From IMG/VR virus record IMGVR_UViG_3300017986_000079, positions 1 to 31,819 of that record: DNA of 31,819 bases; one strand, 5' to 3'. The position numbers and the translations under genes were made by a program. The DNA comes from a virus. The notes below the pieces were generated by a model. It was not told the origin of the DNA. It was given only the letters and a program-made list of their open reading frames with translations, and searched no databases. Shown in pieces: positions 11,001 through 27,712 of the stretch. Position 1 is the stretch's first letter. Every line of letters starts with the position of its first letter.

Positions 11001-11486
11001 GTTATCTATCATCCAGTTAAGTACAAAGTACTATTTGGAAATAAGGCGTCTACAGATTTGCAAGCTACGTTTAAAGTTGTTAAAAACCCAGACTTAGTGT
11101 TAAACGATAACGAAATTAAATCAGAAGTTATCAGTGCAATTAATAAATTCTTTGCATTAGATAATTGGGACTTTGGAGAAAGATTCTACTTTAGCGAATT
11201 ATCAACATATGTAATGAATCAACTGGCGCCAAAAGTTGTTACTTTTGTAATTGTTCCGGTACAAGAAGATCAAACATATGGTTCTTTACAAGAAATTAAA
11301 TCTGAATCAGATGAAATTTTTATCAGCGGTGCAACAGTGCAGGATATTGAAATGATTGATGCTATTACAGCAGGAAGATTAAAGGCATCAGGTGCCTTAA
11401 CTACAGGAATAGAAAATTCTACTACTGGAATACAGAGTAGTACATCTATTATTAGTACAGACAACAGTGGAGGTCTTAGTTACTAA
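8031..11486 (+). CDS. 6: enlarged gp6-like baseplate wedge protein
   Basis: gp6 forms the inner ring that ties baseplate wedges together and controls expansion on contraction. This protein has 1,151 residues; T4 gp6 has 660. The N-terminus is a clear match: W-K-R-I-Y-Q-S-F-R-N (17-26), L-R-E-N-Y-P-E-D-F-N-D-Y (44-55), then a long helical segment ending in R-L-A-R-L-L-S-Y-N-A-K-R (about 100-111). Around 337-437 there are I-F-S-D-G-V-F-G and Y-T-Q-N-R-M-V-T-G-E-D-Y, the pattern shared with gpJ-type wedge proteins. The C-terminal block (993-1078) holds Y-K-V-L-F-G and N-W-D-F-G-E-R-F-Y-F-S-E-L. Between about 560 and 990 lies an extra region with an Asp-rich D812-D-D814-S-D816-G-V-V-D820 loop resembling a calcium site. 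GAGG stands 8 bp before the ATG. The stop codon overlaps the giant gene's start as TAATG. Confidence 0.9.
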   Translation: MSSTDRQNRLLLAEDWKRIYQSFRNADFKSYDFDNLRRTMISYLRENYPEDFNDYIESSEYLALIDMIAFLGQNIAFRIDLNARENYLELAERRESVLRLARLLSYNAKRNRAANGLLRIEAVSTTEELTDSNNINLENQTIQWNDPSNPDWYEQFIRVINASLPVNGTYGRPIKKGTVNGIPTEQYRMNSTNTDVPAYSFTKTVDGKSVPFEIVSTDINDGSIAEEAPFPGNNFAFLYREDGRGVASSNTGFFAHFRQGKMDQGQFNVSNPSTSQVVAIDARNINETDVWLYKLDSLGNEQELWSKVDTVEGNNVIYNSLNKNIRNIYSVLTRIEDRISLIFSDGVFGNLPQGNFRVFYRTSKNQRLIITPDNLKGIAVRIPYISRAGKTETVTLTFALKYTVDNSSISESNASIKRNAPSTYYTQNRMVTGEDYQLGPLTVSQEIVKAKSVNRTSSGISRFFDLVDATGKYSTTNLFGTDGAVYKDYLSIKNSFTFDNLTDIEGQIVNTVQPILSSINIRNYYYDQFPKILIEDLGATWVPLSSDTNYFTGRLENAAGVLVKVGTFTGSNMKFVKANSLLKFVPRDGYHFLNGKEEPGEPDYRGGTNYKWVKVVSVIGDGTEQQLDGTGPILFNDEIPANSKLVEIRTALPSTLTDDVQSQVTNQIFAYKTFGLRYSRNDGEWRVITENNLDASGNFSTGKTGDTTNQQLDASWLLKFNTDGEKYTITHRAMRYVFESDKDIRFYYDSSDKIFNNKTGKIVKDKINVLNINTKPDSSEPFNLDYTWEIVEEYRDAEGYVDSKKIQVSFFDDDSDGVVDNPEIFDDIVDETTNPIDKVVVQKKITTTDGVEDYVYIDKNSINLKILETKESLGALSAYDDQTVFYYIKEDIFEVLNGTTSTLSITTDYKANIGRDGLKFQYIHAADQNSRIDPSASNIIDTYLLTRGYDTEFRKWIDDAIAEKPLPPSSDTLYLTYASDLNKIKSLSDEVIYHPVKYKVLFGNKASTDLQATFKVVKNPDLVLNDNEIKSEVISAINKFFALDNWDFGERFYFSELSTYVMNQLAPKVVTFVIVPVQEDQTYGSLQEIKSESDEIFISGATVQDIEMIDAITAGRLKASGALTTGIENSTTGIQSSTSIISTDNSGGLSY

Positions 11487-14400
11487 TGGCTTATAATGAT
11501 GATCAAAAACCGCAAAATTTACCAGCAGGAAACACTACTCCTCGTAGAAAAAGTGCTGATCACTTACCTCGATATTTTAGAACAAATGTAAACAATAAGT
11601 TTTTATCGGCTACAGTTGATCAATTAATTCAGCCTGGTGTTGCTGAAAAACTAAATGGATATTATGGTCAAAAAAATGCTAAAGGATACCAAAAAGGCGA
11701 CTTTTATATAGGTGATGTTTCTAAATCAAGAGAAGATTATCAACTTGAGCCAGTATCACTTGTTAAAGACGATCTTAATAATATAGATTTTTATGCAGAT
11801 TATAACGATTATATTAATCAATTAAATTCGTTAGGATCTGCAATTGATGATCATAGTGTTTTAAATAGACAAGAATATTATGCATGGAATCCACATATTG
11901 ATTGGGATAAATTTGTAAATTTTCGAGAATATTATTGGCTACCTAATGGTCCGCAAACTATACAAATTGCTGGAGAAACTGACGAGGTAACTAAAACATA
12001 TCAAGTAACCAGTGTTAACAACGGTGAACATTATGGATATGTATTCAATCCAGACGGTCAAACTCAAAATCCAACATTAACGTTATATAGAGGTGTTACT
12101 TATAGATTTGAAATTGATGCATCAGGAAATCCGCTATCTTTTAGAACAAGAAAAGAAACAGCACCAATATTTAGACCAAACATAAGTTATTTTAGAGGAG
12201 ACAAAGTACAATATGAAGGCTCAATATATTTGTGTACTGATAATCACAATGCAGGTAATGAGCTTGACATAGAATTTTGGGATTTAGACACTACATTTAA
12301 TTTAACTACTAATGTTTCTGCACAAAGTATTGATAATGGAGTTATTGAATTAACTTTAGATGCAAGTACGCCTAATTTAATTTACTATATGTCAGATAAT
12401 GATGTATTTGCCAGTGGAACAATTAATGTATTAGACTTAGTAGAAGCATCGTCTATTAATGTTGAACAAGAAATTTTAAAATTAAAAACTTATACTACAG
12501 GAACTGGAGTATCGTTGTCAAATGGTATGAAAGTAGAATTTGTAGGAAATGTAACACCTGAAAAGTATGCAGAAGGTGCATGGTATGTAGAAGGAGTAGG
12601 TTCTGAAATTGATTTAATATCAGAAGTTGATTTAAGTACACCGAGTGCATATACTGATGATATAGAAATAGGATTTGATAATGACGAAAACGGCTTTGGA
12701 GTTTTACCGTTTTCCGAAGCAGTTGGATATCCATTAAACAAAGATTACCTTACTATAAACAGAGGAAGTCGAGACGGAAACTTATGGTCTAAATATAATA
12801 GATGGTTTCACAAAGATGTTATTGAAAAATCAGCAGAAGCAAACAAACAAGTATCTAACATTGATCAAAGTCAACGTGCAACACGACCTATTATTGAGTT
12901 TAACGCTAATTTAAAATTATATAATTTCGGAACTAAAAGAAAACTAACAATAGACTTAGTTGACTCTTTTACTAAAGATGTTTTTAGTACTATTGAAGGC
13001 TCTGTAGGTTATAATATTGACGATGTTGATGTTACTAACGGAATGAGAATTCTGTTTACAGCAGATCCAGATCCACGAGTTTACGGAAAAATATTTGAAG
13101 TTAAATTTATAACTTTCCAAAACAAGAGACAAATTACATTACAAGAAACTGAAGACACAGACCCATTACTTAACGAAGTATTATTATGTAATCAAGGTAC
13201 TGTTAATAGAGGTAGAATGTTATGGTTCGATGGAAGTGTTTGGAAATTAGCACAACAAAAAACTGAGATTAACCAAGCACCTCTTTTTGACGTGTTTGAC
13301 GAAAACGGAAATAGTTATTCAGATACAGAAGTATTTGATTCTACAACATTTGCTGGAACAAAAATATTTTCTTATGCACAAGGGTATGGAGCAAATGATA
13401 CAGAGTTAGGATTTCCGTTAGAATACAGATCAATAGAAAATGTAGGCGATATAGTTTTTAAATTTAACTTACTTGATGATGTTATTAATTGTGCTTATAT
13501 TGGTGAAGATGTAATAACTAAACCTTTGTCAGTTGGATATATTAGACAATATCCTAAAAGAAATACTTGGAAAACATTAAGTGGTTGGACTAAGGCAAGT
13601 TTATTAAGTAATCAGCCCGTCATTAGACAATATATTAATGATAACACAAGAACATTTTTTACACTTGATGTTTATGAAAATAGTGCTTTGTTAGATGACT
13701 TATGGTTAAGAGTTTTTGTTAACAATAATTTAAAATTTGAAAATACAGATTTTACTATAGGATCAGACAATAATAATAATTTAACAATTACATTTAACTA
13801 TGAATTATCTGAAGGTGATGTAATTATTCTTAAAACAAGATCGTCTGCGGAAAAAACACAATACGGCAAATATGAAATTGCAAGTAATTTAGAACGAAAT
13901 CCGTTAAACCAAGATATTACAGAATTTACATTAGGTGAAGTTAACGACCATGTTGGTACTATTATAGAAGAATTGACTACGTTTTCAGGAGTGTATCCTG
14001 GATTTAGTAACCTAAGAGATTTAGGCGAAGTGTCTCAATATGGTAAAAGAATTGTAAAACATTCGTGTCCAATAAATTTACCTTTATATCATATAGTTGA
14101 TAAAGAAGCTAATATAGTTAAATCATTAAAATTTGCACGTAGAGAATACGGAAAATTTAAAAGATCCTTTTTACAAAAAGCAAATGATCTTGGATTTAGC
14201 GGCCCTGTTAAAGATCATGTTGATTTAATTTTAAACGAATTAACAAAAGATAAAATAAAAACAATGCCGTTTTATTTTAGTGATATGGTTCCTTTTACAG
14301 GATCTGTAAGATCAACAACAGAAGTTTTAGATGAAGAAAATAACTTCTTTGCATTAAACAAAATTTATAATTTTTCACAACCAAGTTCAGATGCAGTACA

Positions 14401-17400
14401 AGTGTATCTTAACGGAATTCAATTAATATTAAACAAAGATTATACATTTAATGATCAAGGGTTTGTAATTATCACAGCAAATAAATCGCCAGGCGATATT
14501 ATTGATATTTACGAATACGAATCAACTAACGGAAGTTATGTTCCACCGACTCCTACAAAATTAGGAATTTATCCAAAGTATGAGCCTAAAAAATATATTG
14601 ATAACACATACTTAGAACCTCAAGAAGTAATACAAGGACATGATGGAAGTATTACTGTTGCATATGATGATTTTAGAGATGACTTAATATTAGAACTTGA
14701 AAAAAGAATTTATAATAATATTAAAGTTGACTATGACCCTGATATGTTTGACATCTATGATTACATACCAGGACATAGTAGAAATACAGGAATAGAACAA
14801 TCACAAATTAACGATTCAATGATTAGTGATTTTATTCAATGGATTCAATTAGTTGACGAAGATTATACAAACAATACATTTTTTGAAAGAGAAAACTCGT
14901 TTACATTTAATTATACAGGAGTGTTTGATCCGCAAGATAGACCGTTAAACGGTTGGTGGAGAGCAGTTTACAAATACGCTTTTGATACAGACCGTCCTCA
15001 TACACATCCTTGGGAAATGCAAGGGTTTAGTATTAAACCAGATTGGTGGGAAGACCAATATGGGTCTGCACCTTACACAAGCAATAACCTATTAATGTGG
15101 GAAGATATTGAAAAAGGCATTGTGCGTTTTCCAGATACTCCAGGGGTAAGTGTTCCTAAATTTGCAAGGAATAATATAACAAATAATATACCAGTAGACG
15201 AAGACGGAAATCTACTAAGTCCAGTTTATAGTAGTTTTGTTAAAAGTTATAACACAACTGAGTTAAATCGTAATTTTGTTTTTGGAGATCATAGTCCAAT
15301 TGAAACAGCTTGGAGGAAAGGTTCTGAATACCCATTTTCATTAATTACTGCTTTGGTTTTAAACCAGCCAGCAAGAACATTTGCGTCAATATTTGATAGA
15401 GTTAGACAGACAAAAAATTTATTAGGTCAAAGAAATTATCTTGGTCCTAATGAACATATTACTTTACAGAAACTTGTTTTTCCAAATGACGTTAATGAAA
15501 CTAACAGAGTATTTACATCTGGTTTAATTAATTATGTTTACGATTATTTGGCAAGTAGTGTTACTACTACTTTTAATAATTATAAAAATCGTTTATCAAC
15601 AATTAATAACCAACTTGGATTTAAAATTGGTGGTTTTACTACCAAAGATAAATTTAAACTAATATTAGATTCAAGAACACCTTTAAATAAAGGTAATGTT
15701 TTTGTACCAGAAGAAAACTATAATATTTTCTTAAACAAAAGTTCACCTGTAAAAAGTATTACATATAGCGGTGTAATTATAGAAAAACAAAGTTTTGGTT
15801 TTATTGTAAGAGGCTACGATCAAGTAGCGCCGTATTTTACATATAATCCTGCAATACCCTTACAAAATGATCCTCTTATTAATATTGGAGGAATAAATGC
15901 AAGTTTTGTTGAATGGGATAGTAGAAAAACTTATGTTGCAGGTGCAATAGTACAGCATCAAAATAGTTTTTATAGAGTTGTAGAAACACACGACAGCGGT
16001 CAAGAATTTGACGAAACTAAATTTGTAAAAATTCCTGAATTACCAGTACAAGGCGGCCGCGAAGCGTATTTTAGAAAAGCATTTAAAAACAACTCAGAAA
16101 GATTGCCATACGGTACTGTGTTTAAAAATATACAAGATTTAGTTGACTTTTTATTAGGATACGGTTATTGGTTAGAAAAACAAGGTTTTGTATTTGATTT
16201 TTATTCAGCAAAAGACGAATTTGTTTCTAATTGGCAAACAAGTGCAAAAGAATTTATGTTTTGGACTACACAGAATTGGAATGCTGGTAGTGTAATTACA
16301 TTAAGTCCGGGAGCATTTCAAATTAAATTTATTAGTGAATATTCTGTAGTTGATGATATTTACGATACATTTTATGGATATAGTTTATTAAAAGCTGACG
16401 GCAAAAAGTTACAACCAGAAAATGTTACGTTAACAAGAGAAAATCCAAAAGAATTTATTATTAAACCTAAAGCAACAGAAGACGGAATTTATTCTGTTCG
16501 CTTGTCGTTAGTACAAAAAGAACATGCTTTGATTATAGATAATAAAACAGTATTTGGCGATATTATTTACGATCAAGAACCTGGTTATAGACAACAAAGA
16601 CTTAAAGTTTTAGGATATAGAACAGATAATTGGGACGGAAGTTTAAATATTCCTGGGTTTGTTTTTGATAACGCCAAAATAACTGAATGGAAACCATGGC
16701 AGGATTATGCAATTGGAGACCTTGTAAAGTATAAAGAATTTTATTATAGTGCAAAAAATAAAGTAACAGGAACAGAAGTATTTGTAGCTTCGGAATGGGT
16801 TAGGTTGTCTGAAAAACCCGAAATGGGTCTAATTCCAAACTTTGAATATAAAACTAATCAGTTTGCTGATTTTTATGACTTAGATACAGATAATTTTGAT
16901 GTTGAACAACAAAAATTTGCACAGCATCTAATTGGATATCAAAACCGTGACTATTTGGCAAACATTATTAATGATGATGTTAGTCAGTACAAATTCTATC
17001 AAGGAATGATCCAAGATAAAGGTTCAAAGAACGCTCTTACTAAACTTTTTGATGTTCTTGGCAGTGCAGACAAAGACAGTTTAGAGTTTTATGAAGAATG
17101 GGCAATTAAACAAGGTCAATACGGTGCGGCACAAGGGTTTGAAGAAGTTGAATTTATTTTAGATGAAGATCAGTTTAAATTACAGCCTCAAAGTGTAGAG
17201 TTAGTAAATCAAATTCGAGGTGACGAAACAGACTTAGTTTATAGAATACGTCCGTTTGAAGTATTTTTACGTCCAACCGATTATGATCATAAACCGTTCC
17301 CAACAACATATGTTGATAAAACATATACAAAAAATAGCGGCTATGTTAATCCAGAAGACGTTGACTTTACAGTTTCAACATTTGATAATATTACAAACAT

Positions 17401-20400
17401 TGATTATACTAAATTATCATACGGAGATATTGTTTGGGCAGGAAATGTTGGATTAGGATGGGATGTCTATTTGTATACAAGTGCAGACATTGTTTTAGAA
17501 TCTGTAAGTGCAGAAAAAGAATTTGTATTTAAAACATTGCCTACAATGTTTAGCGAAGGCGACATTATTGGTATAGAATATACCGATGCTGAAGGAGTAG
17601 AAGTTAAAGAACTTGCAAAAGTTACTCAAGTTCTTAATAATAAAATTAAAGTTAATAATACATCTGCTCAAGAGTCAGAAACAATAACTAATCCGATTAT
17701 TTCAAGGTTTATTAGTGTGCGTGTAAAAGACTTTGACGAAGCTTCTAAATTAGTCCAAACTTTTAAAACAAATATTGGAAAGATTTGGATTGATGAAGAT
17801 TTAGATAAAAAATGGAGAGTTATAGAGCAGAAAGCCTCATTTGAAGAGCATCAAGTTATATCAAATACTGAGTCTGGATTACGTAATCAATATGGGATTT
17901 CAATAGACGCAAGTGATAATAATACACTTTTAGTAGTTGGCTCGCCAGATGACGATGACGGAAAAGTTTTTGTTTATGTTAGAGCTGGTAACTCAGGTGC
18001 TTACTCGCTAAATCAAGTTGTAGAACCAGAGTTAGGAATTGCAGATTCTAATCAAAAATTTGGAGCATCAGTTGCAGTTACTGATAATGGAAGATATTTA
18101 ATAGTTGGTTCTCCTGAAGCATCAAATGTTCGTAGTACATTTAAAGGCGATTATGATAGCTCTCAAGATTATAGCCAATTTGATATTGTTACTTACAAAG
18201 ATAATAATTGGCAAGCAACAAAAGACATCGAAGGCGCCGAAGTAAACATTAATTTTGGCAGTTTTGAATCAGTACCTGAAATATTAAGAGACTTGGGCCA
18301 AATAGAAAGTAACGCCGATATTAAACCTGCGCTACTCACAGGTGATTATCCTTTCACAAATATTAATACAGATCACTTTTTAATTAAAGCACCGTTTGAT
18401 ATGTATGAAGGGTCTGGAATTGGCGATACAGTAAAATTAGTTTGGAATAAATTAACCCAAGCAAACCAAGATATTGACACATTGCAAGAAGTTTTACCTT
18501 TTGCTGATCAAGTACCTGATTTAAGTGCTGAATTTTTAACTGCTGGACATATTATTTCTGAAAAAATTGATAGTATTCTTTATGTTGAAAATAGTAATAC
18601 TATTCCATTAGTAGGTCAAATTGTAGAAACACAAACTGGATTTGGTGAAGTTTCTTATACGTTTAATGACGGTGCAAAAGCAACAATTTATATTAAAAAT
18701 CAAAACGGTACATTTGGATTCTTTGGATCGTTAACTACAAGCATTGGTGAATTTGTTGGTGAGTATGTTACTGTTGCACCAAATGATACTGTAGCCGATG
18801 CAGACGAAAAATGGGGCGGTTACTGGAGAGTTGAAAAAGCACCTTATCTTGTAAGTTCTATAAATTCTGATGTAGGACGAGGTTTAGTTTACACTGATGT
18901 TATTCCGTCTGGTAATCCTGATCCAAATAGATTTTACTATAATATTTTAAATTATCAAACTGATATATCTTCAAGTTTAGATTCAATTCATAGTCAAATT
19001 ACTACATTAAGTTATCGAGGTAATCCTGGCCCAGGCGGGGTAACAGATGACTTTGAATCGTCTTTATGGGTAGCAAGAGCACCTAAGCCGTTAACGGATG
19101 TGTTAAATGTAGTTGCTCCAGGAGATCAAAGTAATGATACTGTTGATTTCTTCTATAATGATTTGCCTAATTATAATACAGGTAATTTTAATAATCCAGA
19201 AGATATTGGTCTTGGCGTTGAGCAAATGAATAAAACGCACACAATATATGATGTGTGGGATGGATACATTGATTTTAGAATAACTAAAAACTTAGGCGGA
19301 ATTCCAATTGAACCTAAAGTTGGACTTACTGTTAGAGATGTTACTAATCTTGGAACAGCCGAAGTTATGTTTTATCAAAGATTTGATACAAATAATGGTA
19401 GAATATATGTTAAAAATGTTACAGGTAACTGGGCAGTTGGTAATTTATTTGGCGAAAACAGAGAAATTGAGTTTTTAGCAGATGGTTCTGGAGATGCACT
19501 TTATGATCCAATTTCGGGATCTCGTGTTTTTGGTCAGATTGAACAAAGAGCATTTCCGTTAGATGAAGCAAATATTGGTAAACTTGTGGTGTTTGATAAC
19601 TCTGCAACTATTAATGTTCAAGATGTTGATGCTGATGTAACCACAAAAGAAGACACTATTTTAGATAACGAATATTGGTTCTATAGAGAAGAAACAGTAT
19701 TAGGTATTGCTCGTCCTGCAAACATTCCTACTATAGCCAATAACGATTGGGAATTAATTTATAACATTCCTGCATCTATTGACGGTGTGCAAAGTGGACT
19801 TACAAAAGAAGGAATGTTTTCTATCTACGAAAGAAAAGGTATTGGAGCATTTGTAAAACTTAATTCGTTTACAGTTACAGAACGCGGCAACAATCAATAT
19901 TTAGGTAGTGAATTAAAAGTTTCAAATAATAACGAATTCTATAGACTAATTGTTAAACAAACAGGTGACGGAACAAATACAAATCCTGGCAGACTTTATA
20001 TGTTTAACAATGGTGAATTTAACGGTATTGACTACGGCTGGGAATCAGCAAGAGATAAAAATTATAGAGGCCCATTTGACGATACAACATTATATTATCC
20101 ACAAGAAATTGTTTATTATAATAACAAGTTATATCAGGCAGAGATACTAAATGGACCTGGAACATTTGATGTAAGAGATTGGAATGAATTAGATCAAAAT
20201 GTTAATTACTTAGGATTTATTCCAAATAGATCAGCAAACATTGTAACAGATGCAGATCAAATTATTGAAGACGAAAATTTATTAGAATTTGCAAGAGCTT
20301 ATGATATAAGCAAAGACGGTGAAGTAATTGTTATAACAACAACATACAATGAAAATGCTGAAAATACTGTAGAAATTTATCGTAATATAAATGGACTATT

Positions 20401-23400
20401 TTATAGAGATCAAACAATATTATCACCAAGTAAATTAACTCAATATGGAAGTAATATTGCATTAAGTAATGATGGAAAATTAATTGCAGTAGGCGCACCA
20501 TACAATGATGATGAAGGATTAGACCATGGTACTGTTTATGTTTATAAACAACAAGATGGATCTTTCTTAGAGTCACAAAAACTTTATAGTCCAAAAGATG
20601 ATAAAACAGAATTGTTTGGATGGTCAGTTGACTTTGATGGTGATAGACTTATTATTGGTTCTGCTAACGGAGATTCGTTAATTACAACTACTTTTGACGG
20701 AAGCAGTGTTGGAAATGAAAAACCAGTTACTACATTTGACAAAGAATTTACTACTTTTAAAAATATAACTCAAGATACAGGAAACATTAGAGTATATGAA
20801 AGACTAAATGACTATATGTTATATTCACAAACTATTGATTTTGATAGAGATAACGTTAGTTTATTTGGACGTAGTGTATTATTAAGAAAAAACCATGTTT
20901 ATGCAGGACTACCAACATTTAAGTCAGGCATATATACTGGCGCAGTAGTTGATTATAGATTAGACGATAATACTACAATATGGGAAAATCTTCGTGTAAC
21001 TAAAAATCCTGTAGATGTTAGCAAAATTAAACGTGCTGTATTATACAATACAAAAACAAATACTATTCTTCAGTATATTGATTATATAGATGTACTACAA
21101 GGAAAAATTGCAGGACCAGCAGAACAAGAGTTGACATATAAAACACCATATGATCCTGCAACATATAATACTGGTATTGCTCCAAATACTGACAAAACAA
21201 ATAGCTGGGGAGAAGCCCAAGAAGGTCAACTATGGTGGGATTTAACAAATGCTAAGTTTAGAAATCCTTATCAAGGAAATGTAATCTTTAGTTCAAATAA
21301 TTGGAATTCAAGTTTTTCAAATCAAAATTCTATCGATGTTTATGAATGGGTAAAATCAAAATATCTTCCAAGTGAATGGGATGAAAAATCTGGTACAAAT
21401 GAAGGTTTGAAGCAAGGTATAACTGGCAAAACAAGATCAGGCGACGATGCTTATGTTCTTAAACGTGTATATGATACTGCATCAGGTACCTTTACTAATT
21501 ATTATTATTACTGGGTAAGAAATAAAACTACATTACCTGCTATTGAAGATAGAAAAACAACTGCAAGAGATGTTGCAAGATTAATTAGAGACCCAGCAAA
21601 TGAAGGCTATAAGTTTATTGCACTAATTACTGAAAATGAATTTGCCGTATTTAACTGCGAAAACATATTAAGTGATAGAGATATTGCATTAAGTATACAA
21701 TATTGGACCATTGAAGATCAAAATATTAATATACATAATCAATATCAAATTATTACCGAAGGATTAGAGACAAGTCTTCCAAGTACTGACATTCAAAGAA
21801 AATGGTTTGATAGTTTAGTTGGCTACGATGAGAAAAATAGACAAGTACCTGCTCCGGAATTAAGTGCAAAAGAAAAATATGGTATTTTAAATAAACCAAG
21901 ACAAGGATGGTTTATAAATAGAGAAGAAGCACTTAAAGAAACAATTGAAAGAATTAATAGTGTTTTAAAAGACAACCTAATTAGTGATGATAAAGATATT
22001 ACTAATCTTACAGACATAGATCCAGAGCCAACTAAGTCATCTAAGGTCTGGGATAGAAGTGTAGATACAAAGATTGAATTACAATTTGTTGGTGTTGCTA
22101 AAGCAGAACAAGCAACACTGGAACCTGTTGTCGAAAACGGAAAAATTGTTCGTGTAAACATTACTAACGGCGGTCGAGGCTATTTGCAAGAACCAACAGT
22201 TACAGTTTTAGGAACAGGTAAAGATGCAGAAATTAAAACAGTAATTAACAATCAAGGCACTGTTACAGATGTTATTATTGAAAATGCTGGAACTAACTAT
22301 GCACAAGATAATACAAGATTAGCAGTTAGACGTTATACGGTATTAGTTAAAGCAGACGAATCATTAAATAACAAATGGGCATTATACGAAAGAGATACTG
22401 TTGCTAAAGAATGGATTTTAGTTGAAAGTCAAGCATACGATGTAACTAAGTATTGGGATTATATTGACTGGTATGCTCCGGGGTACAATTCATTTACAAA
22501 AATTGATACAGTAATTGAACAATCATATGATTTAAGTAGACTAAATGATAGTATTGGTGATATTGTAAAAATACAAACAGTAGGTACAGGCGGCTGGCTA
22601 CTGCTTGAAAAGATTAATAATCAAGAAGGCGAAGACTATTCAGTAAATTATAAAACTATTGGTAGAGAAAACGGTACTATACAATTTAAAGAAACTTTAT
22701 ATAATGTTGAAGATTCTAAAGTTGGATTTGACACTACTAATTATGATGCCTTAACTTTTGATAGTCTACCAACAACAGAAACAAGAATTATTTTAAACAC
22801 TATTAAAGACAATGTCTTTATTGAAGAATTAGCATTAGAATATAATAAATTGTTTTTTGCAAGTTTGCGTTATGTTTTTGCAGAACAAAATTATGTTGAT
22901 TGGGCATTTAAATCGTCGTTTATAAAAGCAAAACATAATGTTGGTGAATTAGAACAAAAAGTAAACTTCCAGAACGATAATCTTCCAAGTTATGAAGAAT
23001 ATATTAAAGAAGTTAAACCATTTAAGACTAAAATTAGAGAATATCTAAGCTCTTACGAAAGTACTGACGTTGCAGGAAATAATGTATCAGATTTTGATTT
23101 ACCTGCAAGATACGTTTTAACATCAGACGGAATTGAACCATTAAGAGTTAAATCTTATAATACAGGAATTGTTGCAGACAATCCTGAAGAACTTGAAAAT
23201 TATCCAAATAAAAACTGGATTGATAATTCTGGATATAAAGTTGTTAAAATTGAATTAGATGATCCAGGTCAAGGATATACATCACCACCTACTGTTACAA
23301 TTGAAGGAAATAAAGGTGCAGTAGCAAAAGCGTCATTAGGTAAAAATGGTTCTATTAGCGGAATTCGAGTATTTGATCAAGGAGAAGGATATCTTGAGTC

Positions 23401-26400
23401 GCCAAAGATTACACTAAATGGTTCTATTTCTCCTGGAGGAAGAGAAGCAAGTGCATATGCTATTATAGGAAATAGTCCTGTAAGAAGTATAAAAACAATC
23501 ATAAAATTTGATAGAGTATCTGGAACATATGAATTTGTAAATTTAGACACAATACAAAACTTTGTAGCATCTGGATCTATAATTACATTTGATTTAGATT
23601 GGCCTATGGATTTAAGAACAACAACTGTTCGTGTTTTTGAAAATGACGACGAAGTCCTTGCAAGACGTTATACATATTCTAACCAACTTGATAAATCTAA
23701 AGGATATGATAGATACTTGGGTCAATTAAAGTTTGTTGATCCACCAGTTGCAAATTCAAACATTAGAATTGAATATTCTAAAGATATAAATTTATTAAAA
23801 GCACAAGATCGTATTAATTTAGCATATCAACCAACTGGCGATAACTTTGGTAAAACATTAGGACAACTAATGGACGGCGTTGACTACGGCGGAGTTCAAG
23901 TAAGATCTTTTGATTTTGGCGGAACAACTGGCTGGAATACAGCACCGTGGATGACACAGGGTTGGGACGTATTTGACACTGCATTTGAAGATGAAATATT
24001 CTTATTTAAAACAGTAATAATAGAATTTGATTCGCCAATTAGTGTTAGACCTAATGAAGTACTAACACAAAACAATACACTTGCATCAGGTAAAGTAATT
24101 GGATCTACCGAAACAACTGTAACATTGCAAGCAGACTTTGATTCTAATTTTTCAACAGAAGATGAAATATATGGAGAAGATAGTACGCTAATTGGCGCAG
24201 ATAGCTCTGTTAGAACACCAATTAATGTTAGTAATACATTACCTTTAAACACTCCGCTTGAAGAAGGAATAGAATATAATGTTTACAGAACAGCATATGA
24301 TGCTAATGGGCAAGTCTTAACAAATTATAGAGTTGATGATTCTGAATGGGACGGCTCTACAGTAGGTACACAGGATAATCCGTATGCAAATATGCTACCA
24401 ATACAAGGAAATCAAGAAACTGAACTTGATGTTAATGATTTAGGTGTAGATACTGAATTACAAACAGGAGAAGTAAGACTTGCAATAGTAATTCGTAAAG
24501 TTACTTCAGACGGATCGTTTATTCCTGATCCAGATAGTTTTGACACATCAATTGATGGCGGCAATTTAATATATGGAACAGCTACAGGATTAGATTCTGC
24601 AGATATTAATATTGACGGCGACGGATTTGTTACGCCAACAACATCTAAAGGTCCTGAAGAAATTGTTCCAGGACAAACATTAGACACTGTAGATATCCAA
24701 GTTTACGAAAAACCATCTGGTGGTAGTAGTCAAATTACTTGTAGAAATTATATTGGTAATGGAGTAAAATCTAATTTTGACATAGGAACACCAATAGGTC
24801 AATTTGCCAACTTGTTTGTTAAAGTTGATTACACAGTAATGAACACAAATGATTATACAGTAGACGTTGCAACTAATCAAGTAATTTTCTTTAATCCGCC
24901 TGCAGATAATTCAAGAATTAATATTATTAATCTTGGAGTTAGTGCAACAACAATTTTAGATATTGATACATTTATTGGTAACGGAACTACAATAGATTTC
25001 TTAACTAATGCAAGATTTGAAGATAATGCAAACGGATTAGTAACTGTAGATGGCGAAGTTGTAGACATAACTTTAGTTGAGTCCGATGACACATACGAAA
25101 ATAGTGGTAATTTTGTAGTAAGATTTGCTACGCCGCCTAAAGATGGCGCAATTATACAAATGATGTTAGCAGTAGGCGGCGTTGAAATATTCCAGCAATA
25201 CAGTACTGTAAATATTGATACATTTACTGCCGATGGAAGCACAACACAATACGAATTGTCTCAAGCACCATTTGAACAACAGCCAGAAAGTGCTTATGTG
25301 TTAGTTAAAGTAAACAATAAGATTTTAGATCCTGGTTATAGTCAAAAATTTGAAGTTACTACTGCACTAAGAGAATACCAATTAGATTTAACACAAATTC
25401 CAACTGCAACAGTTAACTCTTTTGACTTGGCAGTATACCTAAACGGTATTGAACTTGAGTATTTACAAAACTGGACATTTGAAGGCGCAGGATCGTTTAA
25501 TCCAAATGTACCTCCTCAATCGCAGCCAGGTAGCACTGTTACACTTGCCGCAGGTATTGGCGAAGATGGTGATGAATTAACAGTATATGTTCTTACTTCG
25601 GGTGAATACAGAATGGGGTATTATGAACAAGATAATACATATGTTAAAACGCCAAAAGTATTAAACTTAGATAATGCATTTAGCGAAGATGATACTATTA
25701 CAGTTTACCAATTTAGTAATCACGATAGTCAAGGTTTTGAAAGACAAAGTTTTGAAGTTACAGAAAAAACTGAAACTACACCTGGTACTAAATTATATTA
25801 CGATTTTAAACTACTTGAAAAAGGCTATATTACATTACGTAAACCTGCAAGAGACGCAGAATATGTTTGGGTAGTTAAAAACGGCGATTTACTATCTCCA
25901 AGTGTTGATTATAGTATTACTTCAAATAGACGTTATGTTAAATTAGTTCAACAACCAAACGAAGGTGACAAACTACAAGTATTACATTTTTCTGATAATA
26001 CAGTAGTTGATAAGTTTGGCTGGCGTCAGTTTAAAGACATTCTTAATAGAACTCATTATAAACGTCTTGAAGAAATTTATCATTTAGAAGAGCCATTAAA
26101 TTGGTATGATAAGACAATTAAAGTTGTTGATGGTAACGGATTACCAGAGCCTGAAGTTGGAGCAAAATATCCAGGCGTTATCTTTATTGAGGGTGAGAGA
26201 ATTGAATACTTTAGGAAAGTAGGTAACGAACTATTACAACTTCGCAGAGGAACACTTGGAACAGGTGTTAAAGATGTTTATGACGCTGGCACAATGCTTA
26301 TGGAACAAGGTGTTGATACTACATTACCATACAAAGACGAAGAAGAAATAATTACAGTTACATCTTCTGGATTTAGTACTGGAAGCGACAGTTATGAAAA

Positions 26401-27076
26401 CAGTCCAGGAATGGGCGTAACCAGTATTACATATGACTTTAATAATAATACGGCATTTCCATTAGGCGGACAAGTAACAACAGTTATTGGAACAGGATTT
26501 ACAGATAGGGTAGAAATTTACGTTGGAACAACAAAATGCGAAGCAACATTTATTTCAGAAAATGAATTAACCTTTGTAACTCCTGCACTACCTGTTGGAT
26601 CATATGACTTGATTGTTGTAAATCCGTTTACAACTGTACCTATTGATACTCCACAAACAAGTTTTGTTGTTCCTGGAGGTATTAAATATGTTCAAATTTT
26701 ATTACCATTTGCACCTATTCCTAACCCAGCAAGTGCAACAGATTGGTATAAAGACACTATTCCAGAAGAATATTGGGAAGCACAGGATATTGAAGTTTTC
26801 GTAGCTGGTAGGCGTTTACGTAAAACTCCGATAAGTAAGTATAATTACGATGCACAAGATAGTCCAGAAGGGGACATAATCTTAGAGGCAGAGTATGCTG
26901 TAAATAAAAATATAGGAGCATATGTGCGTTTAACAACTCCACCACCAGAAGGGACAACAGTAACTATTATTAGAAAGATCGGTACAACATGGTCTGACAG
27001 AGGAACTACTATAGCAAATAGCGATTCTAACATTGCTAAGTTCTTACGTGCTAAGACAACTGAGCTACCACGATAA
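11486..27076 (+). CDS. giant multidomain baseplate/host-binding structural protein (5,196 aa; gp7 position)
   Basis: One open frame of 15.6 kb, roughly 580 kDa. It starts on the last base of gp6 (TAATG) with GGAGG at 11469-11473. T4 has gp7, the wedge backbone (1,032 aa), in this place. The conserved N-terminal block includes W-N-P-H-I-D-W-D-K-F-V-N-F-R-E-Y-Y-W (about 134-151) and a stretch like copper-protein/YHYH folds, N-P-T-L-T-L-Y-R-G-V-T-Y (about 195-206). Further on are five carbohydrate-binding-like modules (near 229, 1476, 1735, 2221, 2860), beta-propeller blades (about 2140-2213 and 2776-3170), two Gly-Tyr beta repeats (about 3539-3616 and 3918-4002), fibre-like beta modules (about 718-1000 and 4419-4707) and a TIG/IPT-like domain (about 4975-5064). 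I see no protease, lyase or membrane segment. The frame is intact, with no sign of frameshift. A virion role is inferred from position and domain types; equivalence to gp7 is only positional. Confidence 0.8.
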   Translation: MAYNDDQKPQNLPAGNTTPRRKSADHLPRYFRTNVNNKFLSATVDQLIQPGVAEKLNGYYGQKNAKGYQKGDFYIGDVSKSREDYQLEPVSLVKDDLNNIDFYADYNDYINQLNSLGSAIDDHSVLNRQEYYAWNPHIDWDKFVNFREYYWLPNGPQTIQIAGETDEVTKTYQVTSVNNGEHYGYVFNPDGQTQNPTLTLYRGVTYRFEIDASGNPLSFRTRKETAPIFRPNISYFRGDKVQYEGSIYLCTDNHNAGNELDIEFWDLDTTFNLTTNVSAQSIDNGVIELTLDASTPNLIYYMSDNDVFASGTINVLDLVEASSINVEQEILKLKTYTTGTGVSLSNGMKVEFVGNVTPEKYAEGAWYVEGVGSEIDLISEVDLSTPSAYTDDIEIGFDNDENGFGVLPFSEAVGYPLNKDYLTINRGSRDGNLWSKYNRWFHKDVIEKSAEANKQVSNIDQSQRATRPIIEFNANLKLYNFGTKRKLTIDLVDSFTKDVFSTIEGSVGYNIDDVDVTNGMRILFTADPDPRVYGKIFEVKFITFQNKRQITLQETEDTDPLLNEVLLCNQGTVNRGRMLWFDGSVWKLAQQKTEINQAPLFDVFDENGNSYSDTEVFDSTTFAGTKIFSYAQGYGANDTELGFPLEYRSIENVGDIVFKFNLLDDVINCAYIGEDVITKPLSVGYIRQYPKRNTWKTLSGWTKASLLSNQPVIRQYINDNTRTFFTLDVYENSALLDDLWLRVFVNNNLKFENTDFTIGSDNNNNLTITFNYELSEGDVIILKTRSSAEKTQYGKYEIASNLERNPLNQDITEFTLGEVNDHVGTIIEELTTFSGVYPGFSNLRDLGEVSQYGKRIVKHSCPINLPLYHIVDKEANIVKSLKFARREYGKFKRSFLQKANDLGFSGPVKDHVDLILNELTKDKIKTMPFYFSDMVPFTGSVRSTTEVLDEENNFFALNKIYNFSQPSSDAVQVYLNGIQLILNKDYTFNDQGFVIITANKSPGDIIDIYEYESTNGSYVPPTPTKLGIYPKYEPKKYIDNTYLEPQEVIQGHDGSITVAYDDFRDDLILELEKRIYNNIKVDYDPDMFDIYDYIPGHSRNTGIEQSQINDSMISDFIQWIQLVDEDYTNNTFFERENSFTFNYTGVFDPQDRPLNGWWRAVYKYAFDTDRPHTHPWEMQGFSIKPDWWEDQYGSAPYTSNNLLMWEDIEKGIVRFPDTPGVSVPKFARNNITNNIPVDEDGNLLSPVYSSFVKSYNTTELNRNFVFGDHSPIETAWRKGSEYPFSLITALVLNQPARTFASIFDRVRQTKNLLGQRNYLGPNEHITLQKLVFPNDVNETNRVFTSGLINYVYDYLASSVTTTFNNYKNRLSTINNQLGFKIGGFTTKDKFKLILDSRTPLNKGNVFVPEENYNIFLNKSSPVKSITYSGVIIEKQSFGFIVRGYDQVAPYFTYNPAIPLQNDPLINIGGINASFVEWDSRKTYVAGAIVQHQNSFYRVVETHDSGQEFDETKFVKIPELPVQGGREAYFRKAFKNNSERLPYGTVFKNIQDLVDFLLGYGYWLEKQGFVFDFYSAKDEFVSNWQTSAKEFMFWTTQNWNAGSVITLSPGAFQIKFISEYSVVDDIYDTFYGYSLLKADGKKLQPENVTLTRENPKEFIIKPKATEDGIYSVRLSLVQKEHALIIDNKTVFGDIIYDQEPGYRQQRLKVLGYRTDNWDGSLNIPGFVFDNAKITEWKPWQDYAIGDLVKYKEFYYSAKNKVTGTEVFVASEWVRLSEKPEMGLIPNFEYKTNQFADFYDLDTDNFDVEQQKFAQHLIGYQNRDYLANIINDDVSQYKFYQGMIQDKGSKNALTKLFDVLGSADKDSLEFYEEWAIKQGQYGAAQGFEEVEFILDEDQFKLQPQSVELVNQIRGDETDLVYRIRPFEVFLRPTDYDHKPFPTTYVDKTYTKNSGYVNPEDVDFTVSTFDNITNIDYTKLSYGDIVWAGNVGLGWDVYLYTSADIVLESVSAEKEFVFKTLPTMFSEGDIIGIEYTDAEGVEVKELAKVTQVLNNKIKVNNTSAQESETITNPIISRFISVRVKDFDEASKLVQTFKTNIGKIWIDEDLDKKWRVIEQKASFEEHQVISNTESGLRNQYGISIDASDNNTLLVVGSPDDDDGKVFVYVRAGNSGAYSLNQVVEPELGIADSNQKFGASVAVTDNGRYLIVGSPEASNVRSTFKGDYDSSQDYSQFDIVTYKDNNWQATKDIEGAEVNINFGSFESVPEILRDLGQIESNADIKPALLTGDYPFTNINTDHFLIKAPFDMYEGSGIGDTVKLVWNKLTQANQDIDTLQEVLPFADQVPDLSAEFLTAGHIISEKIDSILYVENSNTIPLVGQIVETQTGFGEVSYTFNDGAKATIYIKNQNGTFGFFGSLTTSIGEFVGEYVTVAPNDTVADADEKWGGYWRVEKAPYLVSSINSDVGRGLVYTDVIPSGNPDPNRFYYNILNYQTDISSSLDSIHSQITTLSYRGNPGPGGVTDDFESSLWVARAPKPLTDVLNVVAPGDQSNDTVDFFYNDLPNYNTGNFNNPEDIGLGVEQMNKTHTIYDVWDGYIDFRITKNLGGIPIEPKVGLTVRDVTNLGTAEVMFYQRFDTNNGRIYVKNVTGNWAVGNLFGENREIEFLADGSGDALYDPISGSRVFGQIEQRAFPLDEANIGKLVVFDNSATINVQDVDADVTTKEDTILDNEYWFYREETVLGIARPANIPTIANNDWELIYNIPASIDGVQSGLTKEGMFSIYERKGIGAFVKLNSFTVTERGNNQYLGSELKVSNNNEFYRLIVKQTGDGTNTNPGRLYMFNNGEFNGIDYGWESARDKNYRGPFDDTTLYYPQEIVYYNNKLYQAEILNGPGTFDVRDWNELDQNVNYLGFIPNRSANIVTDADQIIEDENLLEFARAYDISKDGEVIVITTTYNENAENTVEIYRNINGLFYRDQTILSPSKLTQYGSNIALSNDGKLIAVGAPYNDDEGLDHGTVYVYKQQDGSFLESQKLYSPKDDKTELFGWSVDFDGDRLIIGSANGDSLITTTFDGSSVGNEKPVTTFDKEFTTFKNITQDTGNIRVYERLNDYMLYSQTIDFDRDNVSLFGRSVLLRKNHVYAGLPTFKSGIYTGAVVDYRLDDNTTIWENLRVTKNPVDVSKIKRAVLYNTKTNTILQYIDYIDVLQGKIAGPAEQELTYKTPYDPATYNTGIAPNTDKTNSWGEAQEGQLWWDLTNAKFRNPYQGNVIFSSNNWNSSFSNQNSIDVYEWVKSKYLPSEWDEKSGTNEGLKQGITGKTRSGDDAYVLKRVYDTASGTFTNYYYYWVRNKTTLPAIEDRKTTARDVARLIRDPANEGYKFIALITENEFAVFNCENILSDRDIALSIQYWTIEDQNINIHNQYQIITEGLETSLPSTDIQRKWFDSLVGYDEKNRQVPAPELSAKEKYGILNKPRQGWFINREEALKETIERINSVLKDNLISDDKDITNLTDIDPEPTKSSKVWDRSVDTKIELQFVGVAKAEQATLEPVVENGKIVRVNITNGGRGYLQEPTVTVLGTGKDAEIKTVINNQGTVTDVIIENAGTNYAQDNTRLAVRRYTVLVKADESLNNKWALYERDTVAKEWILVESQAYDVTKYWDYIDWYAPGYNSFTKIDTVIEQSYDLSRLNDSIGDIVKIQTVGTGGWLLLEKINNQEGEDYSVNYKTIGRENGTIQFKETLYNVEDSKVGFDTTNYDALTFDSLPTTETRIILNTIKDNVFIEELALEYNKLFFASLRYVFAEQNYVDWAFKSSFIKAKHNVGELEQKVNFQNDNLPSYEEYIKEVKPFKTKIREYLSSYESTDVAGNNVSDFDLPARYVLTSDGIEPLRVKSYNTGIVADNPEELENYPNKNWIDNSGYKVVKIELDDPGQGYTSPPTVTIEGNKGAVAKASLGKNGSISGIRVFDQGEGYLESPKITLNGSISPGGREASAYAIIGNSPVRSIKTIIKFDRVSGTYEFVNLDTIQNFVASGSIITFDLDWPMDLRTTTVRVFENDDEVLARRYTYSNQLDKSKGYDRYLGQLKFVDPPVANSNIRIEYSKDINLLKAQDRINLAYQPTGDNFGKTLGQLMDGVDYGGVQVRSFDFGGTTGWNTAPWMTQGWDVFDTAFEDEIFLFKTVIIEFDSPISVRPNEVLTQNNTLASGKVIGSTETTVTLQADFDSNFSTEDEIYGEDSTLIGADSSVRTPINVSNTLPLNTPLEEGIEYNVYRTAYDANGQVLTNYRVDDSEWDGSTVGTQDNPYANMLPIQGNQETELDVNDLGVDTELQTGEVRLAIVIRKVTSDGSFIPDPDSFDTSIDGGNLIYGTATGLDSADINIDGDGFVTPTTSKGPEEIVPGQTLDTVDIQVYEKPSGGSSQITCRNYIGNGVKSNFDIGTPIGQFANLFVKVDYTVMNTNDYTVDVATNQVIFFNPPADNSRINIINLGVSATTILDIDTFIGNGTTIDFLTNARFEDNANGLVTVDGEVVDITLVESDDTYENSGNFVVRFATPPKDGAIIQMMLAVGGVEIFQQYSTVNIDTFTADGSTTQYELSQAPFEQQPESAYVLVKVNNKILDPGYSQKFEVTTALREYQLDLTQIPTATVNSFDLAVYLNGIELEYLQNWTFEGAGSFNPNVPPQSQPGSTVTLAAGIGEDGDELTVYVLTSGEYRMGYYEQDNTYVKTPKVLNLDNAFSEDDTITVYQFSNHDSQGFERQSFEVTEKTETTPGTKLYYDFKLLEKGYITLRKPARDAEYVWVVKNGDLLSPSVDYSITSNRRYVKLVQQPNEGDKLQVLHFSDNTVVDKFGWRQFKDILNRTHYKRLEEIYHLEEPLNWYDKTIKVVDGNGLPEPEVGAKYPGVIFIEGERIEYFRKVGNELLQLRRGTLGTGVKDVYDAGTMLMEQGVDTTLPYKDEEEIITVTSSGFSTGSDSYENSPGMGVTSITYDFNNNTAFPLGGQVTTVIGTGFTDRVEIYVGTTKCEATFISENELTFVTPALPVGSYDLIVVNPFTTVPIDTPQTSFVVPGGIKYVQILLPFAPIPNPASATDWYKDTIPEEYWEAQDIEVFVAGRRLRKTPISKYNYDAQDSPEGDIILEAEYAVNKNIGAYVRLTTPPPEGTTVTIIRKIGTTWSDRGTTIANSDSNIAKFLRAKTTELPR
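12170..12289 (+). repeat. carbohydrate-binding-like module 1 (giant protein residues 229-268)
   Basis: The pattern Y-F-R-G-D-K-V-Q-Y-E-G-S-I-Y-L-C followed by W-D-L-D matches the CBM5/12 layout: Tyr, Gly-Asp-x-Val, x-Tyr-x-Gly, then an aromatic-x-Ala/Cys strand and a closing Trp. It is the first of five such modules spread through the giant protein. Binding is inferred from the motif only. Confidence 0.5.
15902..16039 (+). repeat. carbohydrate-binding-like module 2 (giant protein residues 1473-1518)
   Basis: It begins E-W-D-S-R-K-T-Y-V-A-G-A-I-V with the Trp at 1477, followed by S-F-Y-R-V-V and a K-F-V-K-I-P-E end. This is the same strand order as the CBM5/12 fold, with His in place of the middle Tyr (V-Q-H-Q-N). 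Confidence 0.55.
16679..16813 (+). repeat. carbohydrate-binding-like module 3 (giant protein residues 1732-1776)
   Basis: The pattern is W1735-K-P-W-Q-D-Y-A-I-G-D-L-V-K-Y-K-E, then F-Y-Y-S-A-K and closing E-W-V-R-L. It is the best match of the five to the CBM5/12 pattern, with both the opening and closing Trp and the G-D-x-V-x-Y core present. Confidence 0.6.
18146..18263 (+). repeat. carbohydrate-binding-like module 4 (giant protein residues 2221-2259)
   Basis: D-Y-S-Q-F-D-I-V-T-Y-K-D-N-N-W-Q-A-T reproduces the core with Phe for the usual Gly and Trp for the second-strand aromatic. It lies directly after the first propeller blades, so it may be an insertion in the propeller. Confidence 0.5.
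20063..20200 (+). repeat. carbohydrate-binding-like module 5 (giant protein residues 2860-2905)
   Basis: L-Y-Y-P-Q-E-I-V-Y-Y-N-N-K-L-Y-Q-A-E followed by D-W-N-E-L is the same core with Pro-Gln for Gly-Asp. It sits between two propeller blades. Confidence 0.5.
22098..22333 (+). repeat. Gly-Tyr beta repeat, copy 1 (giant protein residues 3539-3616)
   Basis: It contains I-T-N-G-G-R-G-Y-L-Q-E-P-T-V-T-V and, after a short strand, E-N-A-G-T-N-Y. A second copy lies about 380 residues further on (23238-23493). The G-x-G-Y-x-x-P-x-V-T-(I/V) pattern recurs twice within each copy, in phage tail and fibre style. Confidence 0.5.
23238..23493 (+). repeat. Gly-Tyr beta repeat, copy 2 (giant protein residues 3918-4002)
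   Basis: It contains D-P-G-Q-G-Y-T-S-P-P-T-V-T-I and then F-D-Q-G-E-G-Y-L-E-S-P-K-I-T-L, the same unit as copy 1 with better conservation of the G-x-G-Y-x-x-(S/P)-P core. Confidence 0.55.
24740..25606 (+). other. fibre-like beta modules in the giant protein (residues 4419-4707)
   Basis: There are three successive units of the type I-G-N-G-(T/V)-x-x-x-F, then V-x-V-(D/N)-(G/Y), a Y-T-V strand, and F-x-x-P-P-x-D-(G/N)-(A/S)-x-I. Their starts are near 4419 (Y-I-G-N-G-V-K-S-N-F), 4494 (F-I-G-N-G-T-T-I-D-F) and 4577 (F-T-A-D-G-S-T-T-Q-Y). Similar units are common in tail fibres and spike proteins. A related but more diverged unit lies near residues 942-1000. Confidence 0.5.
26411..26678 (+). other. 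TIG/IPT-like Ig-fold domain near the giant protein C-terminus (residues 4976-5064)
   Basis: G-G-Q-V-T-T-V-I-G-T-G-F, then V-E-I-Y-V-G-T-T-K-C, N-E-L-T-F-V-T-P-A-L-P-V-G-S-Y-D-L-I-V-V-N is the standard IPT/TIG order (G-x-x-x-T-I-x-G-x-x-F; x-V-x-x-G; T-P; G-x-x-x-V-x-V). Such domains act as spacers or adhesive Ig modules in surface proteins. Confidence 0.65.
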
Positions 27077-27097: not shown

Positions 27098-27712
27098 ATG
27101 GCAGACAAATTTAAAGATTTTAATGGAACACTGATACAAGGTCATATTAAGATAACTGACCCAGAATCAGGAAAAGTTATTGTAGATAAGCGTAATGCTA
27201 TCCACTACGAAAACATGAGTATTTCGTTAGCTGAATCATTAGCTAATAATGGTAGCGGCTGGATATACGAAATGAGCTTTGGTAATGGAGGAACATCAGT
27301 GGATCCTACAGGTATTATTACGTACCTTACTCCTAACAGTACTGGAACAAATGCAAGTTTGTATAATCAAACTTATACAAAAGTTGTAGATGACAGAAGT
27401 GTTAACAATATTGATCCAATTAGAAATAAAATTGAAACAAGACACATTAGCGGTACTAACTACACAGATATTGTTGTTACTTGTTTATTAGACTACGGAG
27501 AGCCAGCAGGTCAAGATGCATTTGATAATGCAACTGACGAAGCAAGTTCATTTATTTTTGATGAACTGGGATTAAGGGCTTATTCAACACAAGGTACAGG
27601 ACGTCTGCTTACACATGTTATTTTCCATCCTGTGCAAAAATCATTGAATAGATTAATCCAAGTAGATTATACCGTAAGAATTCAATCATTATCAGGTTTT
27701 AACGAGGTTTAA
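27098..27712 (+). CDS. baseplate-associated structural protein at the gp8 position
   Basis: A 204-residue protein, conserved in appearance: N-A-I-H-Y-E-N-M-S (33-41), E-M-S-F-G-N-G-G-T-S-V-D (about 58-69), T-Y-L-T-P-N, L-Y-N-Q-T-Y, K-I-E-T-R-H-I-S-G (about 111-120), F-I-F-D-E-L-G-L-R-A-Y and V-I-F-H-P-V-Q-K-S-L-N-R-L-I-Q-V-D-Y (about 173-190). I recognise it as a recurring small structural protein of marine T4-like phages located between wedge and fibre genes. Its order (gp6, giant, this gene, fibres) matches T4 gp8, the wedge protein, but T4 gp8 has 334 residues and I cannot confirm homology. A late promoter element precedes it and AGGA stands 7 bp before the ATG. Confidence 0.6.
   Translation: MADKFKDFNGTLIQGHIKITDPESGKVIVDKRNAIHYENMSISLAESLANNGSGWIYEMSFGNGGTSVDPTGIITYLTPNSTGTNASLYNQTYTKVVDDRSVNNIDPIRNKIETRHISGTNYTDIVVTCLLDYGEPAGQDAFDNATDEASSFIFDELGLRAYSTQGTGRLLTHVIFHPVQKSLNRLIQVDYTVRIQSLSGFNEV

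Follow-up and report, generated by a model that had tools for sequence, protein, structure and literature searches.

A giant virion protein gene beside gp6 in a jumbo-phage lineage, a candidate for the gp7 position of the baseplate wedge

The virus record IMGVR_UViG_3300017986_000079 is a linear sequence of 31,819 bp (the window, meaning the whole stretch analysed here), 49% of which is taken up by a single open reading frame (ORF) on the + strand (11486..27076). This giant gene starts with ATG directly after a gp6-like baseplate gene and encodes 5,196 amino acids (aa), with a computed mass of 586.9 kDa and an isoelectric point of 4.5. What does a protein of this size do at the place where T4 has gp7? 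An earlier reading of the letters alone (the sequence-only reading) had correctly reported the open frame of 5,196 codons over half of the window and had proposed a fused wedge and adhesin. We consider it probable that the giant is the gp6 partner (the BW3/gp7-position protein) of the baseplate wedge in a jumbo-phage lineage, a scaffold of ~590 kDa.

The giant is one real, intact gene. Given the base composition of the window, chance would leave 5,196 codons open with a probability of ~1e-190, and the GC content of the three codon positions is alike in all ten slices of the gene (0.40–0.49, 0.31–0.40 and 0.14–0.17). Two loci from one 67.5-kb contig (L010 and L098) match the window at 99.96% identity over 1486–23984 and 99.94% over 10486–31819, together spanning the entire gene without gaps, and two contigs with a second sample id (L091 and L011) match, again without gaps, at 99.91% over 14627–31819 and 99.96% over 1486–13581; one of the two sample ids may be that of the window itself. 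We retrieved 80 IMG/VR loci (L091–L170) with giant residues 3001–3833 and considered frames of more than 300 codons: each locus holds a single matching giant frame, none is split, and 44 frames, one of them from the window's own virus, are complete at both ends (4,953–5,583 aa). In a second set of 80 loci, retrieved with the giant N-terminus (L010–L089; some contigs are common to both sets), the frame is open up to the locus end in 78. The stop in L031 lies 6 nt short of the contig end. L046 has an in-frame stop at 4739–4741 of a partial giant frame, after which homology resumes in the same frame; it could be a sequencing error or real. The sequence-only reading had named an assembly join of separate genes as a finding that would overturn it. 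We reject such a join because the 67.5-kb contig is at least 99.9% identical across the whole gene and 44 complete frames are present in IMG/VR; the unsplit frames of relatives and the even codon-position composition likewise argue against it.

Judged by its profile matches, the protein belongs to PHROG 10938, a virion protein family already known from jumbo phages, to which it adds a long new member. Its first half matches phrog_10938 ('virion structural protein', 3,324 positions) at E 3.1e-265 and its second half at E 3e-83, and the 67-kb contig of the same virus carries four stretches matched by this family. At the DNA level, window positions 1–24900 gave no match to phage records. A tblastn search with giant residues 1–1,000 matched 57 of 50,697 phage records, all less than 60% identical, among them RaK2-, 121Q-, GAP32-, CBB-, PA5oct- and Munch-type phages, Atu_ph07, Phosso, SCTP-2 and Vibrio 2.275. 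Members of PHROG 10938 include RaK2 ORF070, 121Q gp582, GAP32_230, CBB_236, PA5oct gp355 and Atu_ph07 gp180; by its size and position, phAPEC6 gp245 would be a further homologue. The giants of eight isolates span 3,323–4,555 aa, and each of 30 selected records of 156–607 kb, all retrieved via this family, contains one giant frame (2,261–5,293 aa). The sequence-only reading was thus right to caution that the gene itself might not be new, and the search for homologues and module counts that it had suggested found the family both in isolates and in IMG/VR. The jumbo-phage records that we viewed label the giant 'hypothetical', 'structural' or 'virion structural protein', and the literature searched, in the portions available, held no description of its module layout or role.

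Mass spectrometry of homologues places the family in the virion. CBB_236, which we identified as CBB's copy of the giant, was detected with 21 unique peptides and 7.72% coverage (PMC5259590). The available part of the phAPEC6 report lists gp245 (381.88 kDa) with 17 virion peptides, beside gp244, a 'baseplate wedge' (PMC7247149), and the PA5oct record annotates its giant 'ESI-MS/MS'. Coverages of 7.6–7.7% speak for presence in the virion and say nothing on full length. By analogy with these homologues, the window giant is probably a virion protein too.

The position of the gene provides the first argument for a wedge function. The order in the window is gp53-x-gp5-gp25-gp6-giant, and the giant start codon overlaps the stop of the gp6-like ORF (8031..11486, +) by 1 nt. 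Where the upstream sequence reaches 1,000 bases or more (97 loci: 96 from IMG/VR, plus CBB), a gp6-like gene lies immediately upstream in 91, with the 1-nt stop/start overlap in 72 of these 91. Our script saw no long upstream ORF in the other six, probably because it mistook another ORF for the giant in five of them, where the giant frame is short (658–993 aa); in L046 the cause is the cut in the giant frame. Using a gp6 profile built from 76 close-group sequences to recognise gp6 in the isolates, we found the giant directly downstream of gp6 in seven of eight.

Distribution provides the second argument. We compared a panel of nine records comprising T4, seven complete jumbo genomes and the window virus's 67-kb contig, which is a fragment. 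The gp6 family phrog_219 is present in all nine. The gp7 family phrog_964 is present in T4 and in none of the eight giant-bearing records, while the giant family phrog_10938 is present in all records except T4 (8/9, one being the window's own virus). The gp7 protein and the giant are thus distributed in a complementary fashion across the nine records. The assignment of the wedge position in the sequence-only reading is upheld by this absence of the gp7 family, together with the location of the gene after gp53, gp5, gp25 and gp6 homologues.

In contractile baseplates, two copies of BW2 (gp6) join one of BW3 (gp7) in a (BW2)2-BW3 heterotrimer, with BW3 as the usual docking site of receptor-binding proteins, according to the available text of PMC10811340 and PMC6300606. 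Among the BW3 equivalents (gp7, gpI and PA0619), one copy pairs with gp6-type BW2, as described in the available sections of the same two papers and PMC10457771. Because it directly follows gp6 in 7/8 isolates and 91/97 loci, the giant is the best BW3 candidate; position and distribution suggest this assignment, and the pairing with gp6 would follow from it.

Several results weigh against the assignment. We compared the giant with a T4 gp7 profile (T4 and 21 relatives) and with a P2 gpI profile, and neither sequence-profile comparison gave a match. These negatives carry little weight because T4 gp7 and P2 gpI, accepted equivalents, also fail to match each other and gp6 reaches only 13% against T4 gp6; a gp6 profile built from the relatives likewise misses T4 gp6 at HMMER defaults. 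The comparison of the giant with the gp6 profile likewise found no homology, and the controls show that it has little power. Among the 50 structural matches listed by VIA, no title names gp7 or TssG; this negative is also weak because the lists are filled by matches to carbohydrate-binding modules (CBMs) and barrels. In the isolate SCTP-2, the giant lies ~92 kb from gp6. The proposed stem (described below) is internal in the giant, whereas the helical part of Milano BW3 is N-terminal according to the available text of PMC10811340. Lastly, the T4 gp8 family is found only in T4 (1/9 panel records), and its absence from the eight giant-bearing records means that wedge proteins other than gp7 could be the ones replaced by the giant; the T4 gp10 family occurs in two records, T4 and PA5oct, the latter by two partial matches outside the giant.

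SCTP-2 also contains a 3,096-aa gene (L007 6606–15896) that directly precedes the giant, at the place that gp6 holds in the seven other isolates. We considered this gene as a gp6 candidate and found it unsupported, as it has no similarity to gp6 and the real gp6 lies elsewhere.

A comparison of close relatives with isolates revealed which parts of the chain are conserved. We searched the eight isolate giants (hmmsearch) with a hidden Markov model (HMM) of 38 close relatives (a non-redundant set to which the window belongs) and converted profile positions to window residues. Core block A (~residues 20–1915; 11543..17230, +, as are all features of the giant below) is present in all eight, extends to ~2010–2040 in five and has a gap at ~150–380 in several. 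Core block B (~residues 3150–3890; 20933..23155) is also present in all eight, with a gap near 3520–3640. The segment between the blocks varies in size, from ~100 aa in RaK2 to more than 1,000 in the window protein, and beyond block B the chains diverge. The layout is one of two conserved core blocks with variable cargo between and after them, the CBM5/12 modules lying within the core. The sequence-only reading was right about N-terminal conservation and missed that conservation is not confined to the N-terminus.

The best-conserved stretch, residues 1781–1965 (16826..17380), is a candidate stem of the gp7/BW3 type. Conservation was calculated from the 38 close relatives (703 pairs, 43 of them close) at window positions only, leaving the relatives' own insertions uncounted; over all pairs this stretch has a mean identity of 0.69, the highest of any region, and contains the motif H.IGYQ.R.YL..FY.G.I..KGT..EWA...YG. 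A helix run is predicted at ~1784–1885 with a low predicted local distance difference test (pLDDT) score. This low confidence in isolation could fit a stem that needs partners, and it also weakens the helix call itself. AlphaFold2 models of residues 1000–2110 (86 sequences) and 1525–1965 (115 diverse sequences) have mean pLDDT values of 77.7 and 74.6, respectively. Foldseek found no match to either model in the PDB at E<=0.001. Against viral models it returned 24 matches, led by uncultured phage proteins and the Atu_ph07 giant, the last few of which cover little.

Block A also contains two CBM5/12-like modules. Module 1 (residues 1473–1518; 15902..16039) is identified by Pfam PF02839, by our own HMM and by a structure-model match, and module 2 (residues 1733–1776; 16682..16813) by alignment, our own HMM and a match to Milano 8fqc_P1. 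PF02839 scores 52.9 bits for the half protein over two stretches, against a gathering cut-off of 26.2. Module 2 is an insert that is absent at this place from the eight isolate giants. Our own HMM, built from the two window-type modules, counts two modules in the window, two, three and four in 26, 9 and 3 of the 38 close relatives, and one in 3/8 isolates. The claim of many glycan-binding modules in the sequence-only reading therefore holds for the presence of CBM5/12 and not for 'many', as two are secure by Pfam and our own HMM.

Structural comparison links these modules to more than one kind of protein. The model of module 1 matches a chitin-oligosaccharide deacetylase module (3wx7; Z 7.0, 1.2 Å, 45 aa) and the Milano tail spike (8fqc_P1; Z 7.0, 1.6 Å, 45 aa), and that of module 2 matches the Milano tail spike gp124 (8fqc_P1; Z 8.1, 1.3 Å, 45 aa). 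The best CBM rows (Z 6–8, 1.2–1.6 Å over 45–46 aa) have Z scores that are weak alone and agree with Pfam. The tail fibre of Agrobacterium phage 7-7-1 is also among the CBM5/12 fold matches, and the baseplate chains 9f4a_LS and 7b5h_AE were matched at the CBM module (VIA rows carry entry titles). A small beta-barrel at residues 1996–2076 (17471..17713, from the AlphaFold2 model) matches tail-tube, tailspike and unrelated barrels at VIA Z ~7.

The cargo consists of further modules, with internal repeats found by self profile comparison of the window giant. A beta-propeller appears to be split, its first blades at residues 2103–2222 (17792..18151) matching the remaining blades at 2926–3144 (20261..20917) with a probability of 96–97%; the latter contain FG-GAP_2 (Pfam PF14312) at 2986–3020. 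The self comparison places an insert of ~700 aa between them (residues 2223–2925; 18152..20260), with an internal duplication (~2292–2412 and 2522–2652) and a CBM5/12-like stretch near 2858–2917. GGxGY-type repeats occur at residues 3553–3614 (22142..22327; phrog_460) and 3918–3977 (23237..23416), which match each other with a probability of 97%, and the second also matches a cyanophage P-RSM6 protein over ~3918–4005. Internal repeats at ~4303–4775 (24392..25810; best probability 93%) are beta-sandwich-like by eye, and a TIG/IPT Ig-like domain (Pfam PF01833) lies at 4988–5047 (26447..26626). The GGxGY unit is common to head-closure phrog_460, gp8-type phrog_438 and the P-RSM6 protein, and it links phrog_438 to three giants, those of Atu_ph07, Phosso and the window's virus. 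By sequence, the unit may be a structural module that roams among T4-like phages.

We counted the spread of Pfam modules at E<=0.01 in the eight isolates and in ten N-terminal and ten C-terminal halves of close relatives. CBM5/12 is found in 5/8 isolates, 8/10 N-halves and 1/10 C-halves, FG-GAP_2 in 4/10 N-halves and 9/10 C-halves, TIG in 5/10 C-halves and the T7 fibre N-domain (Phage_T7_tail) in 2/10 C-halves. At this threshold none of the eight isolates showed FG-GAP or TIG. Pfam and NCBIfam searches with the core of 20 members found no wedge or Tail_P2_I family. Against PDB sequences, the two halves as single sequences gave nothing at E<=0.1 and the core profile nothing at E<=10; of the module peptides, one gave none and the other only E>=0.08. 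Profiles of the halves gave weak matches to the Milano tail spike (gp124, E 0.0057, from profile A8 at ~window 2854–2893), a depolymerase (0.069), a tail fibre (0.1), an unrelated protein (0.49) and integrin (0.81, from propeller profile A7).

Taken as a wedge protein, the giant might work as follows. The wedge would form by packing of the conserved helical stem (~1781–1965) against gp25 and a pair of gp6 chains, with core blocks A and B making up the remaining wedge body and six copies of the giant in each baseplate. The inserted modules (CBM5/12-like, split propeller, GGxGY, beta repeats and TIG) would point outward from a chain that presumably stays uncleaved, and could offer surfaces on which the downstream 204-aa protein, fibre proteins and perhaps surface glycans dock.

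The giant could instead be a peripheral fibre or whisker protein that is encoded beside gp6 and attached to the baseplate or sheath without pairing with gp6, the true gp7 equivalent being another gene. Its fibre- and spike-type modules (CBM5/12 as in the Milano tail spike, and the T7 fibre N-domain of some relatives) would suit such a protein, and CBB, phAPEC6 and Atu_ph07 bear tail or head whiskers that are unassigned in the available text of PMC5259590, PMC7247149 and PMC6102473. The distance between giant and gp6 in SCTP-2 points the same way, and the neighbouring phrog_11259 protein, present in the giant regions of 8/8 isolates, is another conserved candidate. We nonetheless consider a peripheral protein unlikely, given that both core blocks recur in all eight isolate giants, that the gene is coupled to gp6 by 1 nt in most loci and that its distribution complements that of gp7.

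The fusion proposed by the sequence-only reading would make the giant itself the main receptor-binding protein, with CBM and propeller modules binding host glycans. There is precedent in Vp4, for which a CBM-bearing, cell-binding baseplate wedge protein, Gp119, is described in the available text of PMC11406892, and CBM5/12 passes the Pfam cut-off in the window protein and recurs in relatives as counted above. The C-terminus is also variable in part: the TIG region (4951–5100) is present in 15 of the 38 sequences, and only about half of the last 196 residues are matched in 16 of 26 relatives. Elsewhere in the chain, residues 4141–4260 are present in 5 of the 38 sequences and residues 200–300 in 24. 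Of the two fibre genes that follow the giant, the first is matched over at least 99% in 25/26 relatives and the second in 22/26, the remaining relatives' fibre genes being matched less or not at all, mainly where contigs end. Against the fusion stands the pattern of identity along the chain. In the 43 close pairs, mean identity is 0.64–0.83 in all but one of the 20 regions, and residues 1966–2102 alone fall lower (0.54); the main core regions reach 0.72–0.83, the CBM modules, propeller and insert 0.64–0.68 and the last 96 residues 0.80. We found no hypervariable tip at window positions in these pairs. A host-range adhesin is disfavoured because conservation is fairly even and lacks such a tip, a pattern that would fit a scaffold. 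The modules themselves do not decide the matter, since structure entries for tail spikes, fibres and contractile-injection baseplates also contain CBM5/12-like folds. Because the closest matches include the Milano tail spike beside chitin-active enzymes, the CBM-like modules could equally well have a purely structural use or bind glycans. Of the proposed fusion, the wedge half is favoured by genomic context, and the adhesin half is weakened by the even conservation and the tail spike match. In the same way CBM5/12, FG-GAP and TIG are real by Pfam, and their use in adhesion is only weakly indicated. A giant acting as the main receptor-binding protein thus seems quite improbable.

A polyprotein-like precursor that assembly would cut into several baseplate proteins, such as gp7-, gp8- and gp10-like ones, would be compatible with the low peptide coverage of homologues and would fit the failure to detect the gp7 and gp8 families in any of the eight giant-bearing records (and gp10 outside PA5oct), but blocks A and B flank a variable insert and not clean gene boundaries, and we regard this origin as very improbable.

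Other genes of the window were assigned by PHROG and Pfam profiles. A late sigma factor (894–1715, −) is followed by a gp53 homologue (2559–2861), a virion protein (2863–5646), a gp5-like hub (5650–7521, +; assigned by hub PHROGs, with DUF2345 below its cut-off) and a gp25-like wedge/sheath initiator (7529..7981, +; GPW_gp25 E 3e-9, phrog_261). No lysozyme Pfam domain was matched in the gp5-like hub, unlike the hub annotations of CBB and GAP32. The gp6-like wedge protein, the proposed partner of the giant, matches phrog_10646 at E 3e-299 and phrog_219 at E 3e-21. It is also enlarged (1,151 aa versus 660 in T4), and its match to the T4 gp6 family covers mainly ~115 residues near the N-terminus.

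Downstream of the giant lie the conserved 204-aa phrog_11259 protein (27098..27712, +) and then two more proteins, a tail-collar fibre protein and another that is fibre-like. The phrog_11259 gene lies <=250 nt after the giant in all 63 IMG/VR loci with sufficient downstream sequence, and its product is 76–89% identical in 25 of the 26 relatives examined; in the last one the contig stops short of the gene. In the isolates it immediately follows the giant (Vibrio 2.275, SCTP-2 and Phosso), is separated from it by one or two small genes (PA5oct and Atu_ph07) or lies ~7 kb off on the opposite strand (RaK2, 121Q and GAP32). The 204-aa protein is a likely partner of the giant.

A comparison with characterized systems clarifies what sets the window protein apart. 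It resembles the PHROG 10938 giants in its profile match, in its single chain with both core blocks and, in the six named records viewed, in its place directly after gp6; it differs in its greater length and in its ~1,200-aa segment with the split propeller and extra C-terminal modules. With T4 gp7 (the BW3 counterpart of P2 gpI, pyocin PA0619 and TssG of the type VI secretion system) it shares the gene position directly after gp6, and the two never co-occur in the nine records; it is five times longer, without a detectable sequence or fold match, and has its proposed stem inside the chain. Gp119 of Vp4 (Herelleviridae) is likewise a wedge protein with carbohydrate-binding folds and reported cell binding, while it has 831 aa and other CBM families in the available text of that report. 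The Milano protein gp124, a tail spike, has the CBM5/12-like module alone in common with the giant. The claim in the sequence-only reading that the design lacks a counterpart in T4 is correct for T4 itself; among RaK2-like jumbo phages, though, the design is the rule, and a CBM-bearing wedge is known in Vp4.

Every record of the panel encodes gp6 together with either gp7 or the giant and never both, which makes the giant a direct candidate for the missing gp7. Its core-plus-cargo layout indicates which parts deserve attention. A bolder reading, which we hold only as a tentative possibility, is that one chain took over several outer-wedge jobs of T4 (gp7 and at least part of gp8, gp10 and gp11) across a large jumbo- and mega-phage clade, as a 'super-wedge' with plug-in modules, some of which would grip host glycans. 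An adhesin role remains conceivable and disfavoured, and the giant chain looks more like a conserved scaffold.

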